A stretch of DNA of 48,900 nucleotides. Origin: an uncultured Clostridia bacterium. GTDB lineage: Bacteria; Bacillota; Clostridia; UMGS1883. Positions 407 through 36,939 of this stretch are shown here, piece by piece (within the stretch, counting starts at the first letter, position 1; each line of letters starts with the position of its first letter). The stretch spans positions 1 to 48,900 of the forward strand of contig CANRJP010000008.1 in the NCBI GenBank assembly GCA_947630975.1. The letters are read 5' to 3'. A program made the position numbers and the translations under genes. The notes below the pieces were generated by a model. That model saw only the letters and a list, made by a program, of their open reading frames with translations, was not told the DNA's origin and made no database searches.

Positions 407-1474
407 ATGAAAAAACGTGCGCTTATAGCGATGAGCGGGGGAGTGGACAGCTCCGTCGCGGCATATTTAATGAAGGAGCGTGGCTTCGACTGCGTGGGGG
501 CCACAATGAAGCTGTTTTCCAACGGCGACATCGACATATCAAACGAACACGCCTGCTGCTCCCTTGAGGATGTGGAGGATGCCCGCAGCGTGGCCTTCGG
601 TCTCGGTATGCCTCACTATGTGTTTAACTTTTCCGACCGTTTCAAAGAAAAGGTCATTGACCGTTTTATCAGCGCCTATGAAAGAGGGGAGACGCCAAAT
701 CCCTGCATCGACTGCAACCGCTTTCTCAAATTTGACAAGCTTTTTCAGAGGGCGAGGGAACTGGACTGCGATTATGTGGCGACCGGCCATTATGCCAGAA
801 TTGAAGAGGAAAACGGCAGATATCTGCTGAAAAAGGCTCTCGATCCCGCCAAGGATCAAAGCTATGTGCTCTACTCCCTGACAGAGGAACAGTTAAGGCA
901 TATTATTTTCCCGCTGGGCGGCCTGACCAAGTCACAGGTTCGGGAAATTGCGGAAAATCAGGGCTTTGTGAACGCGAAAAAGCATGACAGCCAGGACATC
1001 TGTTTTGTACAGAGCGGTAAATACGGCGACTTTATCCGCGCCCACGGCAAAAAGAACCTTCCCGAAGGGGATTTTGTGGATAAAAACGGCAAAGTTCTTG
1101 GCCGCCACAAGGGAATTTTCAATTATACCATAGGCCAGCGGCGGGGACTGGGACTGGCCCTTCCCGCTTCAATGTACGTCTGCGAGATAGACGTGGAAAA
1201 CAACCGTGTGATTTTGGGCTTTGACAGAGATTTGTATTCGACCGCCCTTGACGCCGGAGAATTGAATCTCATTTCCGTTGACAGCATAAAGGAGCCCTTG
1301 AGAGTCAGGGCTAAGACCCGCTATTCCCACCGTGAGGACTGGGCCACGGTAATTCAAACCGGCGAAAAAGAGATCCACGTTGAATTCGACCTCCCCCAAC
1401 GCGCCATAACCAAAGGTCAGGCCGTTGTGCTTTACGACGGCGACGCGGTCGTCGGCGGAGGTGTGATCAAGTAG
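407..1474 (+). CDS. mnmA: tRNA-specific 2-thiouridylase MnmA
   Basis: 355 residues, the normal length for MnmA. The enzyme uses ATP and a persulfide sulfur to thiolate U34 of tRNA-Lys, -Glu and -Gln. The PP-loop SGGVDSS is at residues 10-16. The catalytic pair is visible as Cys100 in NPCIDC and Cys199 in DSQDICF. The motif GQRRGLGL lies in the central domain and the C-terminal beta-barrel is complete. The start is the ATG at 407 with GGGAGG eight bases upstream. It stands alone with its own consensus promoter and a hairpin terminator about 100 bp after the stop. Confidence 0.97.
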   Translation: MKKRALIAMSGGVDSSVAAYLMKERGFDCVGATMKLFSNGDIDISNEHACCSLEDVEDARSVAFGLGMPHYVFNFSDRFKEKVIDRFISAYERGETPNPCIDCNRFLKFDKLFQRARELDCDYVATGHYARIEEENGRYLLKKALDPAKDQSYVLYSLTEEQLRHIIFPLGGLTKSQVREIAENQGFVNAKKHDSQDICFVQSGKYGDFIRAHGKKNLPEGDFVDKNGKVLGRHKGIFNYTIGQRRGLGLALPASMYVCEIDVENNRVILGFDRDLYSTALDAGELNLISVDSIKEPLRVRAKTRYSHREDWATVIQTGEKEIHVEFDLPQRAITKGQAVVLYDGDAVVGGGVIK

Positions 1475-1571
1475 GCAATGAGAGGTCGAACCGCGCACAC
1501 CGTGTGGGGTCTATTTTCCCGTATCCATTGTCAAAGAACCTATCTTGACAGAGAGCCTTTTAAAACGAACG

Positions 1572-1608
1572 CCGCCCCGGGGAGAGGAAGCTCCGGGGCG
1601 GTATTTTT
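1572..1608. terminator. Intrinsic terminator between mnmA and the minus-strand small ORF
   Basis: Nine-bp GC-rich arms CCGCCCCGG (1572-1580) and CCGGGGCGG (1593-1601) are followed on the plus strand by TATTTTTATT. It ends mnmA transcription. On the minus strand the same hairpin directly follows the stop codon of the small ORF at 1607, but its T tract there (CGTTCGTTTT) is weaker. Confidence 0.75.
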
Positions 1609-1693
1609 ATTGTACGCTAACTTCTACAGCCGGACAGAGGGGCCTCATAGCCGTGCAGACCAACAGAGCCATGAGTTTTTTTAGTTTCGACAT
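1607..1693 (-). CDS. Possible 28-residue Cys-containing peptide, unknown function
   Basis: The reverse strand from 1693 encodes 28 residues: a basic start (MSKLKKL), a hydrophobic stretch (MALLV), two cysteines at 13 and 20, and a short tail ending VSVQ. It is too short for ordinary gene finders, but the expression signals are strong: an AGGAGG ribosome site seven bases before the ATG, a TTGACA-N17-TAATGT promoter at 1730-1758, and a GC-rich hairpin straight after the stop. No other frame on this strand makes use of these signals. It resembles a small membrane or exported peptide in general form, but I recognise no family. A leader peptide or a small regulatory RNA with a chance ORF are alternatives. 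Confidence 0.5.
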   Translation of the reverse strand: MSKLKKLMALLVCTAMRPLCPAVEVSVQ

Positions 1694-1729
1694 TTTAAAT
1701 TCCTCCTGCTATTTTTTGCTCATGGAAAC

Positions 1730-1758
1730 ACATTATCACATAAAAATCATTTTGTCAA
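1730..1758 (-). promoter_or_regulatory. Sigma-A promoter of the 28-residue peptide ORF
   Basis: Reverse-strand TTGACA (1753-1758) and TAATGT (1730-1735), 17 bp apart, about 40 bp before the ATG. It is divergent from the promoter at 1787-1815. Confidence 0.75.
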
Positions 1759-1786
1759 TATTTTTTAGATTTTTTAAAATAATTCC

Positions 1787-1815
1787 TTGTAAAAAAATGT
1801 ATGGTATGATATAAT
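1787..1815 (+). promoter_or_regulatory. Sigma-A promoter of the channel operon
   Basis: TTGTAA (1787-1792) and consensus TATAAT (1810-1815) with a 17-bp spacer, 21 bp before the first ORF of the operon. Confidence 0.75.
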
Positions 1816-1836
1816 TATGTAAAAAAGGATAGTAAA

Positions 1837-2064
1837 ATGGAGGAAGTGTATTATGGACGGAAACGGACGGCCTCCCCAGCGGCAAAAAAGACCGCCGACC
1901 CAGGGCGGCCCTATAAGGCGCAGAGGCTCGGACTTGTGCTTTTGGTGCTGCGGCTAATACCTCGGTCGCCGGCGGATTATCGATCCATCGATAAGAGCGT
2001 ACCGGCAGCCGTGGTAGAGGATGACGAAAGAGAAAACGGTCAAAGGATGGTGATTGAAAAATGA
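1837..2064 (+). CDS. Small ORF before the channel gene, possibly frameshifted
   Basis: The frame from ATG 1837 gives 75 residues with a basic N-terminus, a short hydrophobic run (LGLVLLVL) and an acidic C-terminus, and its stop overlaps the ATG of the channel gene by four bases (ATGA). A second ATG at 1853, in another frame, has a better-placed GGAGG (1839-1843) and begins a proline/arginine-rich stretch (RPPQRQKRPP) that stops after 34 codons. The two frames read naturally as the N-terminus and C-terminus of one small single-pass membrane protein, so a frameshift near 1925 is possible. I recognise no family. Confidence that something is translated here is moderate; the exact product is uncertain. 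Confidence 0.4.
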   Translation: MEEVYYGRKRTASPAAKKTADPGRPYKAQRLGLVLLVLRLIPRSPADYRSIDKSVPAAVVEDDERENGQRMVIEK

Positions 2065-2786
2065 GAAGATATATTTACGGATTGATCCACAACAGCGACG
2101 CGCACCGGCGTGACGGACTGTGTTATGACTGGTTCATAATGGTTGTGGCCATAATCAGCGTCGTTCCCATGATGTTCAGGGACAATTCCGCCCCGATATT
2201 CAAAGCTTTAGAGTCGGTTACGGTATATATACTGTTTTTTGATTATATACTTCGCTGGATGACGTATGACATGAGTATGAAGAACAACTCGATTTGGGCC
2301 TTCTTCATCTATCCCTTCACGCCGCTGGCTCTGATGGATATAGCGGGTCTGCTGCCGACTTTGGGGCTGCTTCCTTCGAGCTTCATGATTTTGAGAGTAT
2401 TGCGTCTTGTGAAGCTTTTGCAGTATTCAAAGAGCTGCCGCAGGGTTCTCAATGTTTTCCGCAAGCAAGGGAGAACTCTGGCGTCCGTACTGTTGATAGC
2501 CGTGGCCTATATCTTTATTTCGGCTCTTGTCATGTTCATTTATGAGCCGGCTGAAAATTTTCCCACATTTTTTGACGCTCTTTACTGGGCGACCACCGCT
2601 CTGACGACGGTGGGTTACGGCGATATATACCCCAAATCGGATATAGGTCAGTTCATAAGTATGATCTCATCGTTCTTCGGTATTGCGATCATAGCCATGC
2701 CGGCGGGCGTTGTGACGGCCGGCTTCATGGACGAGCTTGACTCCGAGGAAAAAGAAAAGGAAAGGGAGGCCGAAGGAAATGAATGA
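2061..2786 (+). CDS. Voltage-gated potassium-type ion channel
   Basis: 241 residues with six hydrophobic segments in the Kv/KvAP layout. The S4-like helix (RVLRLVKLL, residues 112-120) carries spaced positive charges. The pore loop has the K+ selectivity filter TTVGYGD at residues 182-188, followed by the last helix and a charged tail. It would form a tetrameric plasma-membrane K+ channel. It starts at ATG 2061, overlapping the preceding ORF by four bases, and its end overlaps the next gene by eight, so the three are likely translated together. Family membership is clear; gating and ion choice are inferred from the filter. Confidence 0.92.
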   Translation: MRRYIYGLIHNSDAHRRDGLCYDWFIMVVAIISVVPMMFRDNSAPIFKALESVTVYILFFDYILRWMTYDMSMKNNSIWAFFIYPFTPLALMDIAGLLPTLGLLPSSFMILRVLRLVKLLQYSKSCRRVLNVFRKQGRTLASVLLIAVAYIFISALVMFIYEPAENFPTFFDALYWATTALTTVGYGDIYPKSDIGQFISMISSFFGIAIIAMPAGVVTAGFMDELDSEEKEKEREAEGNE

Positions 2787-3390
2787 CAGCAGGAAGAAGG
2801 AGATATTAAAATACGCCGCCGTCATGCTCATCGGTCTTGGCCTGAATATCGGTCTATATTGGATCGCGCACATATTTGAGCTGCCCATGTGGCTTGACAC
2901 CGTGGGTACGGCGGTCGCTGCGGTAACGCTTGAGCCAGCGGCGGGACTTGTGATCGGATACGCCACAAACCTTTTTGAGTCAAGCGCTATCTATATGAGT
3001 GACACAATAATTTATTACGCCATAACGGCGTCGTGTGCCCTAATCTTCGGAATTATGCTGAGAAAAAAGGGGAAAATATCATGGAAGCGGCTGCCGCTTG
3101 CGGCTTTAAGCTATGTGGCGGTGTCCGCCGTCCTGTCCGCCGTAATATCTATCTGGCGCGACAGTCCGCCCAGCAGCGGATGGGAACTTATGATTTACGG
3201 AAACATGATTTCGGCCGGTGCGCCAAGCTTTTTTGCCTACGCAGTATCAGCAGGAGCTCTGAAGCTGGTTGACGCGGCGGTAATGTGCGCCGTTACGCCG
3301 CTGGTGTACACTGTTTTACCGGAAAGCATGAAAAATGTTACCCATATCAGTGCCACCACATGGAAATCGCCCTTTAATACTAATCCCTAA
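2779..3390 (+). CDS. Multi-pass membrane protein, ECF S-component-like, tail altered by a repeat
   Basis: 203 residues from the ATG at 2779, which follows AAGGA and overlaps the channel stop; an in-frame start at 2737 lies inside the channel gene and is unlikely. Five or six hydrophobic segments are visible. The stretch DTVGTAVAAVTLEPAAGL with GYATNLFES resembles the membrane part of ECF transporter S-components and related integral membrane sensors, but the substrate is unknown. The last codons and the stop (TAA at 3388-3390) lie inside the left end of the repeat element at 3377, so the native C-terminus may have been cut off by its insertion. Confidence 0.65.
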   Translation: MNDSRKKEILKYAAVMLIGLGLNIGLYWIAHIFELPMWLDTVGTAVAAVTLEPAAGLVIGYATNLFESSAIYMSDTIIYYAITASCALIFGIMLRKKGKISWKRLPLAALSYVAVSAVLSAVISIWRDSPPSSGWELMIYGNMISAGAPSFFAYAVSAGALKLVDAAVMCAVTPLVYTVLPESMKNVTHISATTWKSPFNTNP

Positions 3391-3535
3391 TAAAATCATC
3401 AATTCGCGGCGGCCTTTTTTGTGCCATACAGCGTCATTAACCTTGACAATACATACAGTATTGCCTGCGGTCTCTTCCTTGTCTGGCACAAAAAATCCTC
3501 GCCCCTCGGTTGACGCTTTTAATAGGGATTAGTAT
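3377..3535 (+). repeat. MITE-like element, copy 1 (159 bp)
   Basis: The ends are inverted copies: ATACTAATCCCTA (3377-3389) and TAGGGATTAGTAT (3523-3535). Both ends abut TA, as expected for elements that duplicate a TA target. The interior matches copy 2 at 8100-8373 in reverse orientation. It encodes no protein. The right end carries TTGACG (3510-3515) and, across the border, TATAAA (3533-3538), an outward sigma-A-like promoter that here points at the terminator side of the tRNA pair. Confidence 0.85.
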
Positions 3536-3574
3536 AAAAAATAAACGACGGATCATAACAGATAAATAATGCGG

Positions 3575-3608
3575 CAAAAAAGGTCTGTACCGTTTCGGTA
3601 CAGACCTT
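3575..3608 (-). terminator. Terminator of the tRNA pair
   Basis: On the reverse strand AAAGGTCTGTACCG and CGGTACAGACCTTT form a 14-bp stem with a short loop followed by TTTTTTG, three bases after the tRNA-Thr CCA end. Confidence 0.85.
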
Positions 3609-3610
3609 TG

Positions 3611-3686
3611 TGGAGCTGTCCAGCAGATTCGAACTGCCGACCTCTTCCTTACCAAGGAAGTGCTCTGCCTGCTGAGCTAGGACAGC
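3611..3686 (-). tRNA. tRNA-Thr (anticodon GGT)
   Basis: Reverse-strand cloverleaf of 76 nt. The acceptor arms are GCTGTCC and GGACAGC, with encoded CCA. The D-loop contains AGCTCAG, the anticodon stem-loop is CTTCC-TTGGTAA-GGAAG (anticodon GGT), and the T-loop is GTTCGAATC. Confidence 0.95.
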
Positions 3687-3689
3687 GTA

Positions 3690-3766
3690 TGGCGACCCGG
3701 AAGGGGTTCGAACCCTCGACCTCCAGCGTGACAGGCTGGCGTACTAACCAACTGTACTACCGGGCC
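3690..3766 (-). tRNA. tRNA-Asp (anticodon GTC)
   Basis: Reverse-strand cloverleaf of 77 nt. The acceptor arms are GGCCCGG and CCGGGTC (one G-T pair), with encoded CCA. The anticodon arm is CCAGC-CTGTCAC-GCTGG (anticodon GTC) and the T-loop is GGTTCGAACC. It is the first gene of the pair, three bases from tRNA-Thr. Confidence 0.95.
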
Positions 3767-3825
3767 AAATCAAGGGCTACACCAACAAGGACACCCCTTT
3801 TGCTCACCTTGCGCTCACTTTATAT

Positions 3826-3854
3826 ATTATACACTATGAAGGCCTTTTTGTCAA
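3826..3854 (-). promoter_or_regulatory. Promoter of the tRNA-Asp/tRNA-Thr operon
   Basis: Reverse-strand TTGACA (3849-3854) and TATAAT (3826-3831) with a 17-bp spacer: a full consensus, as is usual for stable RNA genes. Confidence 0.85.
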
Positions 3855-4025
3855 GGGTTTTTTGAAAAAAATTTTAAAAATTTTGCCGTGAATGCGAACT
3901 TTATATACAAATTAGAAAAATGTTATTCCTACCTCACGAATAAAGTTTGTATATTTTAGTATCCTAAATATATGCTTTTATAAATATAGTTTATAAAATA
4001 TTCACATTTTTTAGGCAAAAATGGG
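3855..4025. other. AT-rich intergenic region, no gene seen
   Basis: Between the divergent tRNA and J-like promoters the sequence is very AT-rich with no credible ORF or stable hairpin. I see nothing else in it. Confidence 0.6.
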
Positions 4026-4054
4026 TTGACACACCTTATTTTGTGTTGTATAAT
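4026..4054 (+). promoter_or_regulatory. Consensus promoter of the J-domain-like gene
   Basis: TTGACA (4026-4031), 17-bp spacer, TATAAT (4049-4054); a perfect match to the sigma-A consensus, 50 bp before the ATG. Confidence 0.85.
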
Positions 4055-4104
4055 ATAGTTAATAAAGGTTTTATCGTATTATAATGGGGAAGAGGTGAAA
4101 TTAG

Positions 4105-4818
4105 ATGAAAAAGCGCGGCGGCACAGGCGGTGAAAGTCTGTACAATATTCTTGGCGTAAAAAGGGACGCGGACACCTCGCAGATAAAGTCCGCTTATAAC
4201 GGTATCCTTTCGGATATGGGAGCGGGAGATACTATCTATGCGAGGAAGGTTCAAAATGCTTATCAGGTTCTCGGCAACAAAAATATGCGTATGCGTTACA
4301 ACAACACTCTGGACTCTCAGTCGGGGTTTGAAACGGCGGAAGGCGCGGCGTCGGACGACGGCGGCGAGAGACTGATAACGGCTTACACTATTGATCCGTA
4401 CGGAAACTGGTATACGGAAAAAAAGGAGAGGGAGAATTTGCCGGAGTTCAACGGGAATTCCGCTTATATTCTTTACCTCGCGGAGGAAAATGTTTCGGTA
4501 ATTTCGAAACAGTTGTGGAATAAATGGCGCGATTTGTGCGAAATTTGGCACAGTAAAGACATTATCACAGACACAATAGGCAATATTAGTTTAAATGTAG
4601 ACGTAATATGTCTTGATAACGGTAAGTTGAGCCAGTCGAAAATTTCGCGCAAGGTTTCACAGCTGCCGCTGATGTTCCCGAATGTTGTAAGTGAAATGGG
4701 AAGGGTGTACGCCTACAGCGAGGGCGGCGACACGGTAATGATAGAGGAGTATGATTATATGCATCTCCGCAGAAGAATGGAACGGCAGGATCATGTATAT
4801 GAAAGTATGGAATGGTAA
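4105..4818 (+). CDS. J-domain-like protein lacking HPD
   Basis: 237 residues. Residues 12-68 follow the J-domain pattern: YNILGVKRDADTSQIKSAY, then NAYQVLGNKNMRMRYN. The loop that should contain the HPD tripeptide needed to stimulate DnaK ATPase reads LSDMGAGDT instead. The remaining 170 residues carry no motif I recognise; there is no signal peptide, membrane span or zinc finger. It is a single gene with a consensus promoter and AGAGGTGA ribosome site, so it is probably well expressed. A degenerate J-fold used for protein contact rather than as a DnaK co-chaperone is an inference. Confidence 0.75.
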   Translation: MKKRGGTGGESLYNILGVKRDADTSQIKSAYNGILSDMGAGDTIYARKVQNAYQVLGNKNMRMRYNNTLDSQSGFETAEGAASDDGGERLITAYTIDPYGNWYTEKKERENLPEFNGNSAYILYLAEENVSVISKQLWNKWRDLCEIWHSKDIITDTIGNISLNVDVICLDNGKLSQSKISRKVSQLPLMFPNVVSEMGRVYAYSEGGDTVMIEEYDYMHLRRRMERQDHVYESMEW

Positions 4819-4825
4819 ATTAAAT

Positions 4826-4870
4826 AAAAAATCAGGGGCCGTCGGTTCAACCGATGACCCCTGATTTTTT
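4826..4870. terminator. Bidirectional terminator
   Basis: AAAAAATCAGGGG and CCCCTGATTTTTT flank an inner GTCGGTTCAACCGAT hairpin. A-tract on one side and T-tract on the other let it serve both the J-like gene and the convergent LRR gene, whose stop codon (4869-4871) overlaps it. Confidence 0.9.
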
Positions 4871-5807
4871 ATTGTTCCTCCTGAAATGCCCGCTCGCCTA
4901 TATCGGTGACAGACGGCGGCAGCTTTATTTCCTTAAGGCTACGGCAGCCTTCAAAGGCGTAATTGCCCACGGATTCCAGCCCGTCGGGGAAGCGTATGGA
5001 CGTTATACCGATACAGTTCAAAAAGGCGCCGCTGCCGATATGCTTCACGTCGGAGGGAACCGCGAACTCTCCCTCGTAGCCGATGGGGCAGCAGATGAGC
5101 CGGTGCATATCCTTCACGTACAGCGCGCCGTCCACGCTTACAAAGTGGGTGTTGGCGCTGTCCACCACTATACTCTTGAGGTTTTTGGCAAAAGCGAAGG
5201 GGCAGGAGCCTATCATTTCAACGTTTTCGGGAATTGTGATCTCCTGAAGCCCGTCGCACTCGCAGAAGCTCCAGCCGCCGATGAATTTCAGGCTTTCGGG
5301 CAGGACGATATTTTTAATGTTGGGACACTGGCGGAAAGCGTGGTCGCCCAGCACCTTGATGCCCTCGCTGAGTTCCACATAGCGCAGAGCCACACAGCCG
5401 TAAAAGCACCATGGGGACACGGCGTCCACCGAGCCGGGAATGGCTATGCTCTCCAAAGATATGCAGTTTTCAAAGGCTCCCTGACCCAGGAAACGAAGTC
5501 TCCGGGGCAACTCGATGTTTTTAAGAAAGGAGCAGCCCTTGAAAGCAAATTCGCCTATGAAGCGCACGGTTTTCGGCAGCTTGACCGTTTTCAGGCTGCG
5601 GCAGCCCTCGAAGCAGAGGACGCCGACGCGGGTTATGCCCTCGGGCAGGGTCACCTTTGTGAGCTGGGTGCAGCCACGGAAGGCGTCGTCTCCAAGCTCG
5701 GTTACTCCGGCGGGCACCTCCACCTCGCCCACGATGTTCTTGGGCACGCTGTAAAGCACGGTTTTGTCCTCGTTATATAAACAATCCTTCATATCCTCAG
5801 TCGACAT
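4869..5807 (-). CDS. Leucine-rich repeat protein, BspA/TpLRR type
   Basis: 312 residues from ATG 5807, with GGAGG upstream; longer in-frame starts run into nfnB and are rejected. Most of the protein is a run of about 23-residue repeats of the form AFxGCxxLxxVxLPxxVxxIG, the LRR_5 (BspA-like) type. There is no signal peptide or surface anchor, so it is probably cytoplasmic, unlike the classic surface BspA adhesins. It begins 16 bp after the nfnB stop, so it is the third gene of the nfnAB operon. Role unknown; LRR solenoids usually bind proteins. Confidence 0.85.
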   Translation of the reverse strand: MSTEDMKDCLYNEDKTVLYSVPKNIVGEVEVPAGVTELGDDAFRGCTQLTKVTLPEGITRVGVLCFEGCRSLKTVKLPKTVRFIGEFAFKGCSFLKNIELPRRLRFLGQGAFENCISLESIAIPGSVDAVSPWCFYGCVALRYVELSEGIKVLGDHAFRQCPNIKNIVLPESLKFIGGWSFCECDGLQEITIPENVEMIGSCPFAFAKNLKSIVVDSANTHFVSVDGALYVKDMHRLICCPIGYEGEFAVPSDVKHIGSGAFLNCIGITSIRFPDGLESVGNYAFEGCRSLKEIKLPPSVTDIGERAFQEEQ

Positions 5808-5823
5808 TATCCAAGCCTCCGCT

Positions 5824-7224
5824 TTACTTATTTTTGGATCTGATGTATTCGTCGATGGCCTTGGCGGCGTTCTTGCCCGCGCCCATAGCCAAAATGACCG
5901 TGGCCGCACCGGTAACCGCATCGCCGCCGGCGTATACGCCCTCACGGGAGGTCAGGCCGCTGTCGCCCTCGGTAATAATGCAGCCGTGGCGGTTGGTCTC
6001 AAGACCGGGGGTGGTGCTGCGAATGAGGGGGTTGGGGCTGGTGCCGATGGACATTATCACCGTGTCCACTTCAAGCTCAAACTCGCTGCCGGGCTTTTCA
6101 ACGGGGCGGCGGCGTCCGCTGGCGTCGGGCTCGCCAAGCTCCATTTCGATGCAGCGTATGCCGCGAACGAAGCCGTTTTCGTCGCCAAGTATCTCCACGG
6201 GGTTGTTGAGGGTCTTGAAGATTATGCCCTCCTCCATGGCGTGCTCGACTTCCTCTTTACGGGCGGGAAGCTCCTCCATGCCCCGGCGGTATACGATGTA
6301 CACCGTGTCCGCGCCGAGGCGCATGGCGCTGCGGGCGGCGTCCATGGCGACGTTGCCGCCGCCGACTACGGCCACCTTGCCGCTCTTTTTGATGGGAGTT
6401 TTGCTGTCGGGGCGGTAGGCTTTCATAAGATTTACCCGCGTCAGGTATTCGTTGGCGCTGTAAACGCCCTTCAGGCTTTCGCCGGGGATATTCATGAATC
6501 GGGGCAGTCCCGCGCCGCTGCCGATGAACACCGCTTCGTTGCCCATCTCGAACAACTCGTCGACGGTGAGCACCTTGCCTATAACCATATTTGTTTCTAT
6601 ATCCACGCCTATGGCCTTGAGGTTGTCGATCTCCTTCTGAACTATGGCCTTGGGCAAACGGAACTCCGGTATGCCGTAGACCAGCACGCCTCCGGCGGTG
6701 TGCAGAGCCTCGTAAACGGTGACCTTGTAGCCCATTTTCGCCAGATCACCGGCGGCGGTCAGGCCGCTGGGGCCGGCGCCGATTATGGCTACCTTGTGGC
6801 CGTTGGGCTGGGGGATAGCGGGAGTTTCGCTGCTGTGCTCGCGGTGCCAGTCGGCCACGAAGCGCTCAAGCCGGCCTATGCCCACGCTTTCGCCCTTAAT
6901 GCCCCGGACGCATTTGCCCTCGCATTGGTTCTCCTGCGGGCATACGCGGCCGCACACGGCGGGCAGAGCGCTGCTGCGGCTTATTATCTCGAAAGCGCCC
7001 TCCATGTCCTCGTTAGCCACTTTCTCGATGAATGCCGGAATGTCGATAGCCACGGGACAGGCGCTGACGCAGGGTTTATTCTTACAGTTAAGGCAGCGGC
7101 GCGCCTCGCCCACCGCCATGTCGTAGGTGTAGCCTGTAGCCACCTCGTTAAAATTCCGTGCCCTCACCTTGGGATCCTGAGAGGGCATGGGGCATTTTTC
7201 GTTGCTCATATTGCGCTGGGCCAT
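5824..7224 (-). CDS. nfnB: NfnB/SudA-type large subunit, NADPH:ferredoxin transhydrogenase
   Basis: 466 residues of the GltD-like family. The N-terminal domain has two Cys sets for [4Fe-4S] clusters: Cys44, 47, 52, 56 and Cys91, 95, 101, 105. An FAD dinucleotide fold follows (AIIGAGPSGL, about 146-155), then an NADP-binding fold (VVGGGNVAMDAAR). With NfnA this forms the electron-bifurcating NADH-dependent ferredoxin:NADP+ oxidoreductase that balances NADH, NADPH and reduced ferredoxin in anaerobes. GltD or sulfide dehydrogenase SudA are homologous alternatives, but the adjacent NfnA-type partner favours Nfn. One base separates it from nfnA. Confidence 0.9.
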   Translation of the reverse strand: MAQRNMSNEKCPMPSQDPKVRARNFNEVATGYTYDMAVGEARRCLNCKNKPCVSACPVAIDIPAFIEKVANEDMEGAFEIISRSSALPAVCGRVCPQENQCEGKCVRGIKGESVGIGRLERFVADWHREHSSETPAIPQPNGHKVAIIGAGPSGLTAAGDLAKMGYKVTVYEALHTAGGVLVYGIPEFRLPKAIVQKEIDNLKAIGVDIETNMVIGKVLTVDELFEMGNEAVFIGSGAGLPRFMNIPGESLKGVYSANEYLTRVNLMKAYRPDSKTPIKKSGKVAVVGGGNVAMDAARSAMRLGADTVYIVYRRGMEELPARKEEVEHAMEEGIIFKTLNNPVEILGDENGFVRGIRCIEMELGEPDASGRRRPVEKPGSEFELEVDTVIMSIGTSPNPLIRSTTPGLETNRHGCIITEGDSGLTSREGVYAGGDAVTGAATVILAMGAGKNAAKAIDEYIRSKNK

Positions 7225-7225
7225 G

Positions 7226-8068
7226 TCACTCGACCTCCTTGTTCAGTAGATTGCAGCCTTCCTCACGGGCCTTTTGTTCAAAGTCACGGTACATGGCGCC
7301 GCGGCTCATAGCCTCGTCGAAGTCCACGAGATGGCCGTCGAAGTCGGGGCCGTCCACACAGGCGAACTTTGTCTCGCCGCCCACCGTAAGTCGGCAGCCG
7401 CCGCACATTCCGGTGCCGTCGATCATAATAGGGTTCATGGAAACGACCGTTTTAACATTGTACTTCTTTGTTACGGCGCAGACGAACTTCATCATTACGA
7501 GGGGGCCGATGGCTATGGCCTCGTCGTATTGGTTGCCCTCGGTAATGAGCCGCTCCAGCGCGGCGGTCACAAGGCCCTTTTCGCCGTAGCTGCCGTCGTC
7601 GGTCATTATCACCAGCTTGTCGCTGGCGGCTCTGAACTCGTCCTCGAGGATGAGCAGATCCTTGTTTCTGAAGCCCACCACGGAGTGAACCTCGCAGCCC
7701 AGAGAATGCAGCTTCTTGGCGATGGGATAGGCTATGGCGCAGCCCACGCCGCCGCCTACCACGCAGACCTTTTTCAGGCCCTCAACGTGGCTGGGAACAC
7801 CCAGCGGCCCCACAAAGTCGTGGATACAATCCCCCTGATTGAGAGCGTTAAGATCCATGGTGGCACGGCCCACTATCTGGAAAATTATGGTAACGGTGCC
7901 CTTGTCCCGATCAAAGTCGGCGATAGTCAGGGGCACACGTTCGCCGTCCTCGGTGGCGCGGAATATTATGAACTGGCCCGGCTCCGCCTTTTTGGCGATG
8001 AGGGGAGCGTCCACGACCATTTTTGTGACCGTGGGATTTAAGGCCGTTTTTTCGAGAATTTCAAACAT
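7226..8068 (-). CDS. nfnA: NfnA/SudB-type small subunit, FAD/NAD-binding
   Basis: 280 residues from ATG 8068, preceded by AAGGAAG. The open frame continues to 8278, but that part lies in the repeat element. It is a ferredoxin-NADP reductase-like flavoprotein: FAD-binding barrel (residues 1-95), NAD-binding fold (VCVVGGGVGCAIAYPIAK from 101), and Cys222, Cys225 and Cys237 near the C-terminus that hold a [2Fe-2S] cluster in this family. It is the first gene of the nfnA-nfnB-LRR operon. Dihydroorotate dehydrogenase electron-transfer subunits (PyrK) are similar, but there is no pyrD next to it. Confidence 0.9.
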   Translation of the reverse strand: MFEILEKTALNPTVTKMVVDAPLIAKKAEPGQFIIFRATEDGERVPLTIADFDRDKGTVTIIFQIVGRATMDLNALNQGDCIHDFVGPLGVPSHVEGLKKVCVVGGGVGCAIAYPIAKKLHSLGCEVHSVVGFRNKDLLILEDEFRAASDKLVIMTDDGSYGEKGLVTAALERLITEGNQYDEAIAIGPLVMMKFVCAVTKKYNVKTVVSMNPIMIDGTGMCGGCRLTVGGETKFACVDGPDFDGHLVDFDEAMSRGAMYRDFEQKAREEGCNLLNKEVE

Positions 8069-30832: not shown

Positions 30833-30861
30833 TTGACAAATTTGTTCGACAGGTGTAAAAT
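30833..30861 (+). promoter_or_regulatory. Promoter of the blaI-M56 operon
   Basis: TTGACA (30833-30838), 17-bp spacer, TAAAAT (30856-30861), overlapping the first BlaI-like dyad. Confidence 0.8.
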
Positions 30862-30885
30862 ATAAACCGAAATTAGACAAATGTA
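30848..30885 (+). promoter_or_regulatory. Two BlaI/MecI-type operators
   Basis: GACAGGTGTA (30848-30857) and GACAAATGTA (30876-30885), each followed by AAATATAA, spaced 28 bp. They match the ACAnnTGT core of BlaI/MecI boxes. One lies between -35 and -10, the other downstream of the start point, as expected for autorepression. Confidence 0.75.
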
Positions 30886-30903: not shown

Positions 30904-31275
30904 ATGACGGAAAACAAAAGACTTCCCGAAAGCGAATTTGAAATAATGATGGCCGTGTGGGACGAGGACGGGCCCGTGACCTCCGAAATGCTGCTGGAAA
31001 AACTGCACAAAAGCTGGAAAAAGTCCACGCTGCTTAACTTCCTGTCTCGGCTCTGCGAGCGCGGCTTCCTCAACTGTGAAAAGCGGGGAAAGATAAACGT
31101 CTACACTCCTCTTGTACGGCGTGAGGATTACGTCCGACGGGAGAGCGCCAGCTTCTTGCAAAAGGTACATATGGGCTCCCTGACCGCGCTGGTGGCCTCA
31201 CTTTACGACGGACGGGCCATAACCGACTCCGATCTGGCGGAGCTGGAGGACTTCATCAGGGGGGCAAAGGAATGA
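30904..31275 (+). CDS. BlaI/MecI-family transcriptional repressor
   Basis: 123 residues from ATG 30904, eight bases after AAGGTG. The winged helix shows LPESEFEIMMAVWDEDGPVT and KKSTLLNFLSRLCERGFL, and the C-terminal dimerisation helices end in LAELEDFIRGAKE. Such repressors are cut by, or released after signalling from, the paired M56 receptor, which is encoded next (four-base overlap). No beta-lactamase gene is adjacent, so the regulon is probably the operon itself and unknown targets. Confidence 0.93.
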   Translation: MTENKRLPESEFEIMMAVWDEDGPVTSEMLLEKLHKSWKKSTLLNFLSRLCERGFLNCEKRGKINVYTPLVRREDYVRRESASFLQKVHMGSLTALVASLYDGRAITDSDLAELEDFIRGAKE

Positions 31276-32081
31276 TACCTGCTATCCTTGAAGTTTCCCT
31301 TTCGGTGTCGGCTGTTATCCTTTTGATGCTCATTCTCAACAAGTTTATTGACAGACGTTACATGGCTAAGGGAAAATATATTCTGTGGCTTATTTTGACG
31401 GTAAGGCTCCTCATTCCCGTGAGCGTTGAATTGCCCAAGGCTCCGGTGACAATCAGCGCTCCGGAGCGTGTCGTGGTTATAAGTCCTCCCGGCGCTTCTT
31501 TGCCCATCACCGTTATGCCCGAAAGTGAGCGGCGGGAGAGGGCAGCCTCCGACCAAGCCGCCGCCGCGAACTCCGCCGCCTATGTTCCGGTGATGACGCT
31601 GGAACGGCTGCTGCTAATTATTTGGGCTGTTGGGGCGGTGGGCTTTATGATGTGCCACATTATAAAATATTGGCGCTTTAAGTTGGCGGTAAAGCCCCGT
31701 CTCCGGCCCGAGGGGGAATATAACGGGGTGCCGGTGTTCCGGTGCGGCGCCATCGAAAGTCCCATGCTCACCGGATTTTTCAAGCCGGAAATACTTCTGC
31801 CGGAAATTGAGCTGACCCCCGAGGAGCTGAATGTGGTTTTCGCCCATGAATACACCCACTTCCGCCGCAGGGATCTGTGGTACAAGCTGCTGCTCCTGAC
31901 AGCCAACGCCGCCCACTGGTTCAATCCTCTTGTGTACCTTATGGCGCGTCAGGCCAACCGCGACTTGGAATACTCCTGCGACGACGCCGTGACGAGAGGT
32001 AAGGACATGGAGTTCCGCAAGCTTTACTCCATGACGGTCTTAAAAACTATGAAACGGGGTGGTTCGTCTTATGAAAAATAA
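31272..32081 (+). CDS. M56 (BlaR1-type) metalloprotease, lacking the sensor half
   Basis: 269 residues. Two N-terminal helices, a loop, a third helix (LLLIIWAVGAVGFMMCHII, 113-131), then the cytoplasmic gluzincin domain: AHEYTHFRRRD with the zinc motif His192-Glu193-His196 and the third ligand Glu233 in DLEYSCDDAV. A normal BlaR1-like protein continues through a conserved linker, a fourth helix and an extracellular sensor. This one stops right after MTVLKTMKRGG, and the missing linker, helix and an external domain are found in the next gene, which overlaps it by 11 bases. It probably signals together with that protein. Confidence 0.9.
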   Translation: MIPAILEVSLSVSAVILLMLILNKFIDRRYMAKGKYILWLILTVRLLIPVSVELPKAPVTISAPERVVVISPPGASLPITVMPESERRERAASDQAAAANSAAYVPVMTLERLLLIIWAVGAVGFMMCHIIKYWRFKLAVKPRLRPEGEYNGVPVFRCGAIESPMLTGFFKPEILLPEIELTPEELNVVFAHEYTHFRRRDLWYKLLLLTANAAHWFNPLVYLMARQANRDLEYSCDDAVTRGKDMEFRKLYSMTVLKTMKRGGSSYEK

Positions 32082-33123
32082 ATATATATCTCCGCCCTTT
32101 CTGTCCACGTCCTTCAGCGAGAGCGGCAAAAAAGCGAAGGATCGCTTTTCAAACATATTGAACACCAAAGCAAAAAAGACGGGCGCGGGGCTTGTCGCTT
32201 TTGCGGTCATGACAGTTTTCGCCGCCGGAGCGTTGGTGGCCTGTAAGAGCGAGGAACCCGAGCCGCCCGAGGCGGAAACCGTCCTGACCGGCAAGGCGGC
32301 GGAGCTTTACGCCCTGCGGGGCGGGGATATCGGCGAAATAACCTCCGCGCTTGACATCGCCGGCAGGCTTGGCCCCTTTGAAACGGAAATAAACTACGGA
32401 GACGGAGCGGCGGACAATATGCCCGAGTTGATGCTGTCATTTGCGGAGCCCTTCGGCGAAAGGGGAGAGTACGACTGCTGCCGCATAATGTTACAGTACG
32501 CCGATCTTATACTGACTCTTGCGCCGGAGCTGAATTCCGTGGCCTGGCGCGACGGTGGGAGCGGTGTCGAATGGCACAGTCCAAGGAAAGCGGACACCGG
32601 TGACGGCACCAACGCCGCTGCCTTTGCGCGGCGGTACGCCGGCGCCATGGTGGAGATCGAAAGTCCCACCGTTCGGGAATATCTCGAAGCCGCCGAGCCG
32701 GAGGAGTTTCGGGAGCACGCTCTTGTATTAAACTACATGGGCGCGGAGAACAGGCCGCTTCTGGACGCTTTTCTTGATGACGTGAAAAACCGCCGCCCGA
32801 CCTCCCTTGACGTGGTGCAGTATACCGTTGAGGGCGACCCGATCCTTTCAAGGATAGTCTATGACGGGTACCGCTATTACGGCGGCAAAGACAGCAGCCG
32901 CGACAGGTTTGGCGACGGACTGTATCTGGATTACGGAGAGTACGACCATCTCAGGGTTTTCAATGACTACGGTGCGGCGAACTTTTACCTGCTGGACGAT
33001 ACAAGCCTGACCCACGAGGATATTATGCACTATTTTATGAGCAGCGCGAATTTGGAGCCTATAAAAGTGCGGACACTATTTTATATCGAGGGGGAAAACG
33101 AGTATGAAGAAGCAATTTATTAA
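32071..33123 (+). CDS. Separate sensor half of the M56 receptor, paralogue A
   Basis: 350 residues from ATG 32071, eight bases after GGGGTGG. Residues 8-34 (PPFLSTSFSESG, then KAKDRFSNIL) correspond to the cytoplasmic linker that in one-piece M56 proteins follows the protease domain. A transmembrane helix (37-57) ends in LVAC, a lipobox-like Cys58. About 290 extracellular residues follow with no domain I recognise; an acidic, soluble sensor or ligand-binding part is assumed. It overlaps the protease gene (11 bases) and paralogue B (20 bases). Role as detachable sensor is an inference from domain order. Confidence 0.8.
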   Translation: MKNKYISPPFLSTSFSESGKKAKDRFSNILNTKAKKTGAGLVAFAVMTVFAAGALVACKSEEPEPPEAETVLTGKAAELYALRGGDIGEITSALDIAGRLGPFETEINYGDGAADNMPELMLSFAEPFGERGEYDCCRIMLQYADLILTLAPELNSVAWRDGGSGVEWHSPRKADTGDGTNAAAFARRYAGAMVEIESPTVREYLEAAEPEEFREHALVLNYMGAENRPLLDAFLDDVKNRRPTSLDVVQYTVEGDPILSRIVYDGYRYYGGKDSSRDRFGDGLYLDYGEYDHLRVFNDYGAANFYLLDDTSLTHEDIMHYFMSSANLEPIKVRTLFYIEGENEYEEAIY

Positions 33124-34159
33124 GCCGCCCTTTCTGTCCACGTCCTTCAGCGAGAGCGGTGAGAAAGCGAAGGAGCGTTTTGCGAACATACTGAGCACAA
33201 ATGCAAAGAAGCTGGGCGCGGGACTTATCGCCCTCGGGGCCGTGACCGCGTTTGCCGCCGGTGCGCTGGTGGCCTGTAAGAGCGAGGAACCGCCGACAAG
33301 TACCCACGGTCAGGCGGCTGAATCGGAGAATAACATCGAGCCGTCTGAATTTGACAGCTTGGACAAGGCAATATCGGCGGCCATCATTTCCGGCAGCGGC
33401 AGCTATGCCGACACGGAGTTCTGGTCCAGCGGGCAAATTATCCTGAGGGACGACGTAAGGGAGCATCCCACGGACGGCAAAAAGAGGCACACCGTTTACG
33501 CCATTACATCTATCGGCGGCTACTCCTTTATAAACGGAAAATTCGTCAAGGACAGCGGCAGCGGAGCCATACCCATGAAATTTGAGGTGACTGAAACGCC
33601 GGAGGGCAGCTTTATTATGGAGGGCATTAGCACGCCCGAGGACGGCAGCTATTATCTGCCGTCCATAAAGGAGATGTTCCCTCCTAACCTTTGGGACGAG
33701 GCCATTGACTCTCAGGATAAATACGGCGAACTGATGGAGCAGGAATTCAGCCACGCCCGGAATTATGTGGAGAGTATCGGCCGTGATGCGGAGGTGTGCA
33801 GCTATGCCGACCTTGACACGGTTCTGCCGGACATGAGTGCCGAGGCGTCGAACCGTCTCCTTGAAATTAAAAAGGACGGGGAATATTGGAAATATCCCGA
33901 TTTTATCGGTACGCAGGAGTATTTGGAGGACGGCGGGCGCTTTGTTTACGAAACGTCCTGGGACGGCAACGTAACCGGCGGCACCCTGACCTGTACAAAA
34001 TACGACGGAGACGGCGCTCTTGCGGAAAAGCACGTTTTTGAAATTGACGGTGCGGAGGTTTTTGAAAGCCGTTTCGAAATCTATGCCCACGACGGAACCG
34101 TACACAGCACCGTCTATGACCGCAGTGAGGCTCCGAAAGAGCCGAGAAAGCTAAAGTAA
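33104..34159 (+). CDS. Separate sensor half of the M56 receptor, paralogue B
   Basis: 351 residues from ATG 33104. The first 62 residues are nearly the same as paralogue A, position for position: PPFLSTSFSESG at 8-19, transmembrane helix 37-57, Cys58, then KSEEP. The DNA is also nearly identical there. After that the two proteins diverge completely: this one has SENNIEPSEFDSL and a 290-residue external domain ending in a beta-rich stretch (GGTLTCTKYDGDGALAEKHVFE). It is thus a second sensor with the same membrane module. No protease domain precedes it other than the shared one. Confidence 0.8.
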   Translation: MKKQFIKPPFLSTSFSESGEKAKERFANILSTNAKKLGAGLIALGAVTAFAAGALVACKSEEPPTSTHGQAAESENNIEPSEFDSLDKAISAAIISGSGSYADTEFWSSGQIILRDDVREHPTDGKKRHTVYAITSIGGYSFINGKFVKDSGSGAIPMKFEVTETPEGSFIMEGISTPEDGSYYLPSIKEMFPPNLWDEAIDSQDKYGELMEQEFSHARNYVESIGRDAEVCSYADLDTVLPDMSAEASNRLLEIKKDGEYWKYPDFIGTQEYLEDGGRFVYETSWDGNVTGGTLTCTKYDGDGALAEKHVFEIDGAEVFESRFEIYAHDGTVHSTVYDRSEAPKEPRKLK

Positions 34160-34446: not shown

Positions 34447-36939
34447 TTACAGATATTTACCGGTTATACTTCCTTTAGCGGCCTTTATTTCCTCCGGCGG
34501 CCCGGCTGCGACTATCCGTCCGCCCTCCTCGCCGCCGCCCGGCCCCATGTCCACCACGTAGTCGGCATTCCGTATTACGTCGAGGTCATGCTCGATGACT
34601 ATCACCGTGGCCCCCTGATCGATGAGGGTCTGGAATACCGATATCAAAGAAGCCACGTCCAACGGGTGCAGGCCGATGGTGGGCTCGTCGAATACAAAGA
34701 GTGAATCACTTTGGCCCCGACCCATTTCGCTTGCCAGCTTCAAACGCTGGGCCTCGCCGCCGGAAAGGCCGGGAGTTTGTTCGCCGAGAGTCAGATAGCC
34801 CAGCCCCACGTCGCGGAGCACCGACAGGCGGCTGTGAACGGTTTTGAGATCGGCGTAGACCGACATGGCCTCGTCCACGCTCATTGCCATTAGACGTGGC
34901 AAAGACAGCCTTGAGCCGTCCTTTTTCTCCCGGAAGATGTCGAAAGCCGTCTTGCCGTAGCGGCTGCCTCCGCAGTCGGGGCAGGGAATGTCCACATCCG
35001 GCAGGAACTGCACGTCAAGGCTTATGCTGCCGGTGCCGTCGCAGGTGGGGCAGCGCAGTGAGCCCGTGTTGTAGGAAAAATCTCCGGCTTTGAAGCCTTT
35101 GGCCTTGGCCGCCGGTGTTTTGGCGTAGATCTTGCGCAGCTCGTCGTGTACGCCGGCATAGGTAGCTACGGTGGAGCGGATATTGATGCCTATGGGTGTC
35201 GCGTCGATAAGCTTTACCTGTCTTATGCCTTCGGCCTCGATTGAATGTACGTGGGGCGGCAGAGCCTGACCCGCGGTCAGCGCCGACAGGGCGGGGACAA
35301 GGCTTTCCAAAATCATGGTAGTCTTTCCCGAGCCGGAAACTCCCGTAACAACCGACAGTCTGCCCTTGGGGAAGGAAACCGTCAGGGGCTTTACGGTGTG
35401 TATCTGTCCGGTCGATAGCTTTATTTCTCCCGCCTCGAAGAGCTTTTCGGACCTTGCACGCTCACGGAGCACGGGCTTTGAGTCCGGTCTTAAAAACGGG
35501 CCGATTTTTGATTTGGGATTTGAGGCCAGCTCACCGGGCTTTCCCTGCGCGATTACGGTTCCGCCGCCGGCTCCCGCTTCCGGGCCAAGTTCGATGAGCC
35601 GGTCGGCGTGGGCAAGGACGTTTACATCGTGATCCACCAGCACCACGGAATTTCCGTCGGCGACAAGATCGTCCATAACCCCGGTCAGACCTTCCAAATT
35701 TGCCGGGTGCAGCCCGATTGACGGCTCGTCCAGCACATAAAGAACGCCTGTGGTTCGGTTGCGGACGGAACGGGCAAGCTGGGTGCGCTGCCTTTCTCCG
35801 GTGGAAAGGGTGGAGGCCGCCCGGTCGAGGGTCAGATATGAAAGTCCCAAGTCCACCAGCCTTTTGGCCGTGTTTTGGAAGGACGCGCATATGCTCTCCG
35901 CCATAGGACGCATTTCCGGCGGCAGAGAGCCGGGCACTCCCTCTACCCATTCTATCAGCTGAGCGAGGGTCATTTTACAGGCGTCGGCCAATGATATACC
36001 CCGCAGTCTCGGGGCTCTCGCGGCCTCGGACAGCCGTGTGCCGCCGCAGTCGGGACATTCGTCCTGACGCAGGAATTTTTCCACCCGCTTCATGCCCTTT
36101 TCGTCCTTGACCTTGGCGAGGGCGTTTTCCACGGTATAGGTGGCGTTGAAGTAGGTGAAATCCATGTCTCCGGCAGCGCCGCTGGTTTTGTTTTGATAGA
36201 TGATGTTTTTCTTGACGGCGGGGCCGTGGAAAACGATTTCCCGCTCCTTATCGGTCAATTCCCGAAAGGGCACGTCGGTACGGACGCCCATCTCACGGGC
36301 GATGTCCTTCATTAAAGACCACATCAGCGTCTGCCACGGCGCAACGGCGCCCTCGTCTATCGAAAGCGATTCGTCGGGAACAAGCGTAGACTGATCGACA
36401 GTGCGCACGACCCCCGTTCCTCCGCAGGTGGGACAGGCGCCCTGACTGTTGAAGGCCAGCGACTCCGCTCCCGGAGCCGTGACTTTTTCGCCGCATACCG
36501 GGCAAAAAATATCCTTTTCCGCCGCCACGTCAAGCGTGGGCTCGATATAGTGTCCGTTGGGACAGCGGTGACTTGCCAGTCGGGAAAACATGAGCCGTAA
36601 GCTGTTCAGCAGCTCCGTTGAGGTGCCGAAAGTGCTGCGTATGCCCGGCACGCCGGGCCTCTGATGCAGGGCCAGAGCCGCCGGAATGTAGCGCACCTCG
36701 TCCACTTGGGCTTCGGCGGCCTGGGTCATTCTGCGCCGTGTGTAGGTGGACAGGGATTCGAGGTAGCGCCTCGAGCCCTCTGCGTAAAGCACGCCCAGGG
36801 CCAGAGAGGACTTGCCGGAGCCGGACACACCGGCTATTCCCACGATTTTTCCAAGCGGAATATCCACGTCTATATTTTTCAGGTTGTGTACTCTCGCACC
36901 GCGAATTTCAATGGCCTCGGGCCCGTTTTTTGTGTCCAT
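34447..36939 (-). CDS. Short UvrA-like ABC-type ATPase
   Basis: 830 residues against about 940 for UvrA. Two ABC ATPase modules are present: Walker A GVSGSGKSSLALGVLYAEG near residue 37 and GVSGSGKTTMILESL later, ABC signatures LSTGERQRTQLAR and LSGGEAQRLKLA, and Walker B motifs ending VLDEPSIGLHP and VFDEPTIGLHP. Zinc-type CxxC pairs are present (CPVCGEK, CPTCGGTG, CPTCDGTG, CPDCGGSRY). The region that normally binds UvrB and the insertion domain look shortened. It is a UvrA paralogue of the UvrA2 sort, possibly linked to DNA-damage or drug tolerance rather than the main excinuclease. Ribosome site CGGAG before ATG 36939. Confidence 0.87.
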   Translation of the reverse strand: MDTKNGPEAIEIRGARVHNLKNIDVDIPLGKIVGIAGVSGSGKSSLALGVLYAEGSRRYLESLSTYTRRRMTQAAEAQVDEVRYIPAALALHQRPGVPGIRSTFGTSTELLNSLRLMFSRLASHRCPNGHYIEPTLDVAAEKDIFCPVCGEKVTAPGAESLAFNSQGACPTCGGTGVVRTVDQSTLVPDESLSIDEGAVAPWQTLMWSLMKDIAREMGVRTDVPFRELTDKEREIVFHGPAVKKNIIYQNKTSGAAGDMDFTYFNATYTVENALAKVKDEKGMKRVEKFLRQDECPDCGGTRLSEAARAPRLRGISLADACKMTLAQLIEWVEGVPGSLPPEMRPMAESICASFQNTAKRLVDLGLSYLTLDRAASTLSTGERQRTQLARSVRNRTTGVLYVLDEPSIGLHPANLEGLTGVMDDLVADGNSVVLVDHDVNVLAHADRLIELGPEAGAGGGTVIAQGKPGELASNPKSKIGPFLRPDSKPVLRERARSEKLFEAGEIKLSTGQIHTVKPLTVSFPKGRLSVVTGVSGSGKTTMILESLVPALSALTAGQALPPHVHSIEAEGIRQVKLIDATPIGINIRSTVATYAGVHDELRKIYAKTPAAKAKGFKAGDFSYNTGSLRCPTCDGTGSISLDVQFLPDVDIPCPDCGGSRYGKTAFDIFREKKDGSRLSLPRLMAMSVDEAMSVYADLKTVHSRLSVLRDVGLGYLTLGEQTPGLSGGEAQRLKLASEMGRGQSDSLFVFDEPTIGLHPLDVASLISVFQTLIDQGATVIVIEHDLDVIRNADYVVDMGPGGGEEGGRIVAAGPPEEIKAAKGSITGKYL

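Follow-up and report, generated by a model that had tools for sequence, protein, structure and literature searches.

BlaR1 is a one-piece membrane receptor through which penicillin resistance is induced in Staphylococcus. In the Staphylococcus aureus protein, the loop spanning residues 271-289 reaches into the zinc site. Cleavage occurs between S283 and F284 (P4-P1', LSHS↓F), and the loop blocks BlaI both before and after this cut. Arg294, a residue of the domain-swapped alpha9 helix, acts with Asp246 to complete the active site (PMC9834060). In Clostridium thermocellum, genome-wide mapping of binding sites assigned one BlaI a regulon of just one operon, made up of blaI, blaR1, and two hypothetical genes (PMC8457756). 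Here, we analyzed an operon of an uncultured Clostridia bacterium, located in the first 48,900 nucleotides of contig CANRJP010000008.1 (hereafter, the window), in which blaI is followed by a truncated M56 protease gene and by two further genes, sensor A and sensor B, that open with counterparts of the BlaR1 loop and arginine. We favor, with a probability of roughly two in three, a receptor in which a common protease subunit would pair with exchangeable single-pass sensors, each supplying the plug, the arginine, the last membrane helix, and an ectodomain, so that several signals could reach one BlaI.

Gene layout and position of the cut relative to BlaR1

The four genes overlap one another on the plus strand in the order blaI, protease, sensor A, and sensor B. 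The first (30904..31275, with its ATG at 30904) encodes a BlaI/MecI-family repressor of 123 amino acids (Penicillinase_R, PF03965, E = 1.7e-26) and shares 4 nucleotides with the gene for the M56 protease subunit (31272..32081), a protein of 269 amino acids with three transmembrane helices that was assigned by Pfam (PF05569, E = 1e-42) and by alignment to BlaR1 (8exp). The overlap of the protease with sensor A (32071..33123, 350 amino acids) is 11 nucleotides, and that of sensor A with sensor B (33104..34159, 351 amino acids) is 20. The initial annotation had given sensor A its own start codon and ribosome site and had sensor B begin independently at the equivalent Met, which agrees with our reading: the ATG codons at 32071 and 33104 are preceded by the ribosome-site-like, G-rich stretches GGGGTGG and GAGGGGG, respectively.

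The protease, as had also been noted initially, ends soon after its zinc domain. Its Pfam match covers positions 3-267 of a 296-position profile, and the chain thus lacks the C-terminal part of the family. The chain stops before the self-cleavage loop yet retains the HExxH motif and downstream Glu and Asp expected of an M56 zinc site (HEYTH at 192-196, E233, and D237). A counterpart of the loop is found instead on the sensors, which start ten residues before its motif (PPF-L11-S-T-S-F15-SESGKKAKD-R25). The segment of sensor A predicted to form the plug and to carry the catalytic arginine, L11-S-T-S↓F15...R25 (32101..32145), corresponds to L280-SHS↓F284...R294 of BlaR1, and sequence alignment places the same segment of sensor B at 33134..33178. 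One-piece relatives aligned to 8exp provide the connection: in the M56 protein of Paenibacillus puerhi, LSTSFSGGKKTMERRF aligns over LSHSFNGKKSLLKRRL of the BlaR1 chain, and F15 and R25 of the sensors match F284 and R294 without a gap, the spacing being ten residues in both. Each sensor chain thus runs from the self-cleavage-loop segment (LSTS↓F) through the conserved arginine and an alpha9 segment to the last membrane helix and an outside domain that differs between the two. By hydropathy, the single helix spans residues 40-58 in both sensors (32188..32244 in A and 33221..33277 in B); it follows a positively charged N-terminal stretch (+7 in A, +5 in B) and precedes an acidic outside part.

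These features extend well beyond the window. All 56 sensors collected have one transmembrane helix near the N terminus and an arginine at P1'+10, and among the 55 that were aligned, whose ectodomains are unrelated, no columns other than T13 and R25 are invariant. Given the placement of these motifs and their conservation, the plug and the arginine would be brought by the sensor chain and the zinc site by the protease chain. Judged by sequence, this is a BlaR1-type receptor divided at its natural self-cleavage loop into protease and sensor chains.

The two sensors resemble each other less than first described. Sensor B was said to repeat the first 62 residues of sensor A almost exactly; the two stretches are indeed a related module, but at 74% identity the stronger wording does not stand. 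The external domains, which had been proposed to be unrelated, are not recognizably alike, with an ectodomain alignment (~26%) at background. DUF4362 was detected in the ectodomain of A (Pfam, E = 6e-8), no Pfam family matched that of B, and a Pfam search found no transpeptidase match, and hence no penicillin-binding (class D beta-lactamase-like) sensor domain, in either. The ectodomain of B gave a good structure model, for which there was no Foldseek match below an E value of 0.001; VIA-align rows at Z 5-7, covering a cystatin/NTF2-like part (84-186) and a beta meander (240-344), were not above the usual background.

Two groups of neighboring genes, named by eye, flank the operon on the minus strand: hrcA-grpE-dnaK-like heat-shock genes upstream, and a large UvrA-like ABC excinuclease paralog (34447-36939) that is convergent to it.

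Recurrence and origins of the split

The start of sensor A overlaps the protease stop by its 11 nucleotides in another frame, which is what might be seen if a one-piece gene had been broken, or misassembled, and sensor B were a chance paralog. The relatives leave this explanation with next to no probability. A second genome of the genus (G007, also CANQRB010000002) carries the same operon, overlaps included, and the ratios of nonsynonymous to synonymous substitution (dN/dS) between the two are 0.06 for BlaI, 0.14 for the protease, 0.17 for sensor A, and 0.30 for sensor B, with values of 0.07 and 0.10 for the module alone; as estimated from this comparison, all four genes of the operon are under purifying selection. 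The sensor module occurs in 7 of 8 genomes of the genus, always behind a truncated M56 gene. Operons recovered whole have 1, 2, 2, 3, 3, and 4 sensors, and a further operon, truncated where its contig ends, has at least one. This distribution, together with recurrence in many other Clostridia, argues that the layout is not due to chance. Frameshifting cannot be the general explanation either, because stops and spacers of up to ~70 nucleotides separate the protease and sensor genes in several relatives. The initial annotation had argued against a simple sequencing frameshift and had named an uninterrupted protein in close relatives, with sensor B missing or decayed, as what would speak against its reading; what was found is a nearest genome that is equally split, with both sensors constrained, and the nearest one-piece relatives only outside the genus. 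Its question whether truncated M56 genes are followed by genes opening with the module was answered in the affirmative, with one to four such genes, every one equipped with a start and ribosome site of its own, across the genus and, independently, in many families of Clostridia. The correspondence of the cut to the BlaR1 loop and Arg294, the second origin described below, and the apparently self-contained regulon go beyond the initial annotation. With the duplicated loops described below, these observations led us to reject a broken gene, a frameshift, or an assembly error as the source of the layout.

In many other Clostridia, blaI and a truncated M56 gene are followed by genes starting M(F/L)(K/E)N(I/L)YTT(K/R)MS........R, in which the arginine is again ten residues past P1', here Met. 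Among 291 genomes sampled from the class, 19 had high-scoring matches at gene starts, frequently as two or three sensors in tandem, and fused receptors in this sample gave weak matches, mostly from module position 6-7. In a maximum-likelihood tree of 77 M56 domains, the two split groups fall into separate clades (support 100/99 each), both of which adjoin fused receptors, and the fused form of the module is recognizable in receptors among which the split lineages nest (e.g., PALSTGFSASGKSARSRFANIL). A single origin of all split forms was rejected (delta lnL 107; approximately unbiased test, p = 9.5e-7). The tree therefore has the split arising at least twice, once in the lineage of the window and once in a larger Clostridia clade. 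The type-2 sensor module was not found outside the class in 398 genomes of a phylum sample, which held no known positive, and a search for a plasmid copy of the system gave no match.

Extending the tree by three split cases near the window's lineage (G200, G172:C42, and G131) raised the number of label changes from 2 to 4, at least three of which are forced by well-supported branches, suggesting further splits or re-fusions in this part of the tree. Two of these cases may also indicate how the division came about. The proteases of G200 (L097/L105, G200:C32) and G131 (L108, G131:C109) retain a stub of the loop, ending in AVLSTYLNGGVSNE-stop and IVLTAGISNEGK-stop, respectively, and in G200 the complete downstream sensor bears a second loop copy. 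Since these proteases keep a vestigial loop of their own before the stop, the loop appears to have been duplicated and not frame-shifted; both loci look like duplication followed by truncation, as in an intermediate toward the split.

Some loci depart from the common layout. L074 (G160:C2, reverse strand, 598-7515) combines, in tandem, a fused M56 receptor and a split M56 gene with three sensors, one of which has an LCP glycopolymer-transferase domain. L080 (G036:C65, reverse strand) consists of blaI (2000-2371) and a lone sensor (2503-3651), with no M56 gene between or beside them; this sensor may use a protease from another operon of the same genome. At L107 (G031:C100:8104-8268), the beginning of a gene gave a module-like match, and no M56 gene was found in the surrounding stretch examined. 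At L049, L050, and L051, blaI and a short M56-family protein (306-316 amino acids) that lacks an outside domain and did not match the HExxH pattern used are followed by a membrane protein of ~320 amino acids, which is possibly another way of dividing the receptor.

Regulation and the proposed role of the sensors

The region upstream of blaI contains a promoter-like site by consensus match (30833..30861; TTGACA at 30833-30838, a 17-bp spacer, and TAAAAT at 30856-30861) and a tandem pair of BlaI/MecI-type operators, gACAggTGTA (30848..30857) and gACAaaTGTA (30876..30885), that match by sequence and are conserved in relatives. An adjacent BlaI/MecI repressor and a tandem of ACAnnTGTA sites in the promoter are both as in BlaR1 systems, and of 13 operons examined, 12 have at least one BlaI-type site ahead of blaI. 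The tandem pair occurs once in this genome, as do exact matches to the extended site, which are limited to this operon. Because the sole strong tandem operator found in the genome fronts it, the operon may chiefly regulate itself, with the sensors as part of its output. When the repressor is aligned to S. aureus BlaI, N101↓F102 falls on S99↓L100, which predicts a protease site at residues 96-103 (LVAS↓LYDG) whose LVAS↓L resembles the LSTS↓F of the sensor plug.

Under the shared-protease reading, the protease and the sensors would assemble from separate chains much as the BlaR1 domain-swapped dimer does. Whether or not it has been cleaved, the N-terminal tail of a sensor would plug the active site of the protease, and Arg25 from the same chain would complete that of the partner protease. 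Once either ectodomain senses a ligand or the state of the wall, the membrane helix would shift and the plug would loosen, and the freed protease would then cut BlaI near S99↓L100 and derepress the operon. In the window, two sensors would share one protease and two signals would reach one BlaI, with mixed complexes (A/A, A/B, and B/B) possible. With a docking module common to all sensors, a single protease and a single BlaI could serve two or more inputs.

Comparisons of modules and ectodomains are relevant here. Ectodomains of types A and B turn up in different genomes of the genus, and modules share a mean identity of 85% within an operon compared with 65-66% between operons, whatever the ectodomain type; modules joined to the same ectodomain type in other operons are 65% identical. 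Some arrays of the second clade combine modules that are 95-98% identical with ectodomains that are 22-30% identical. Such likeness within operons is as expected if all modules must fit one protease. It is also partly the product of gene conversion, as indicated by the L041 operon, where 91-100% of module codons are the same.

The ectodomains themselves allow a second interpretation. Domains recognized among 55 sensors include Cu_amine_oxidN1 (15), M23 (8), DUF4825 (5), and DUF4362 (3), with single occurrences of LCP, LprI, and Ig-like domains, and this content points to the cell wall. The downstream proteins could therefore be mainly effectors, that is, membrane-anchored wall proteins made once BlaI is cut, whose cytosolic tails would act as a product-feedback plug while the signal is sensed by the membrane loops of the protease subunit or by the amount of tail available. 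Enzymatic or wall-active ectodomains (M23 endopeptidase in 8 of 55, an LCP glycopolymer transferase, and an LprI lysozyme-inhibitor domain) would suit this role, as would an operon that is the only strong operator target found in the genome and the precedent of the confined BlaI regulon in C. thermocellum. However, the invariant arginine, whose BlaR1 counterpart is required for full activity, sits on the sensor chains, so these chains would complete the protease and not serve only as output, and in fused relatives this module is continuous with an ectodomain that occupies the place of the sensor. We regard a mainly effector role as rather unlikely, about as a minority option would be, and the two roles are not exclusive; both could be true.

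A third explanation, which we consider very improbable, is that the sensors have lost their action on the protease and are ordinary membrane proteins or lipoproteins that keep the old junction as a relic membrane anchor. The helices of A and B close with a lipobox-like LVAC, and a module is found without a nearby M56 gene at L107 and beside blaI at L080. The same LVAC, however, is present in the fused receptors L064, L083, and L096, and the Cys is absent from most other sensors; we did not adopt a lipoprotein reading, LVAC being an ambiguous sign of one. Moreover, the invariance of T13 and R25 in 55 proteins would not be expected of a relic, nor would the module dN/dS of 0.07 and 0.10, and sensors lie directly behind a truncated M56 gene almost everywhere.

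Several points weigh against the shared-protease receptor. In BlaR1, the self-cleavage loop works in cis, within a single chain, and here it lies on a separate one. The predicted BlaI site has Leu at P1', a position at which Phe is called almost invariant in the BlaR1 study. Neither a ligand nor a target gene outside the operon was identified, and the structure model of sensor A was unusable (predicted local distance difference test score, 43). Finally, gene conversion accounts for part of the likeness of modules within operons, which weakens this likeness as evidence for selection on docking.

Comparison with described systems

We found no description of a split BlaR1 with sensor arrays in the open-licence literature. 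Mycobacterial BlaR (Rv1845c) is likewise an M56 protease that acts on BlaI without an extracellular sensor, but the passage cited mentions no separate sensor gene with a self-cleavage-loop module (PMC5473688). The BlaI_1845 and BlaI_0696 operons of C. thermocellum are similar in that the BlaI regulon is the operon itself, with blaR1 and hypothetical genes; these were reported as BlaR1 and hypothetical proteins, and a split receptor was not described (PMC8457756). The nearest fused relatives are one-piece Bacillota M56 proteins with other ectodomains (for example, L083, L096, and L064 of P. puerhi), which share the junction sequence but are uninterrupted and have one sensor per protease.

Compared with BlaR1/MecR1 and BlaI/MecI of S. 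aureus and Bacillus licheniformis, the operon shares the M56 HExxH/Glu/Asp residues, the adjacent repressor, the operators, the LSxS↓F loop, the arginine at +10, and the order of last membrane helix and outside domain. It differs in that two to five separate chains, encoded by separate genes in this genome and its relatives, take the place of one polypeptide, in having several sensors per protease with the loop and arginine on the sensor chain, and in that no penicillin-binding sensor domain was found in A or B and no beta-lactamase or mecA gene was seen in the operon. Because it is neither a single chain nor equipped with a penicillin sensor, we treat the system as a variant distinct from BlaR1.

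There is continuing debate about transmembrane signaling by BlaR1, notably over whether self-cleavage contributes to signaling or only to maturation. The split form would be a natural "pre-cut" receptor, arisen repeatedly, with the plug and catalytic arginine on a chain open to separate addition, removal, or mutation, so that the plug and domain-swap models can be tested directly. If our reading is correct, it would provide a protease-based route for several outside signals into one repressor, along with ready-made swappable sensors. We also lean, if only slightly, toward a wider view in which these operons form a modular receptor family that evolved at least two times by cuts at the BlaR1-type self-cleavage loop. 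In such a family, exchangeable sensors would give a shared membrane protease its inhibitory plug and catalytic arginine in trans and provide combinatorial input to one BlaI, as a protease-based counterpart of shared signaling chains.

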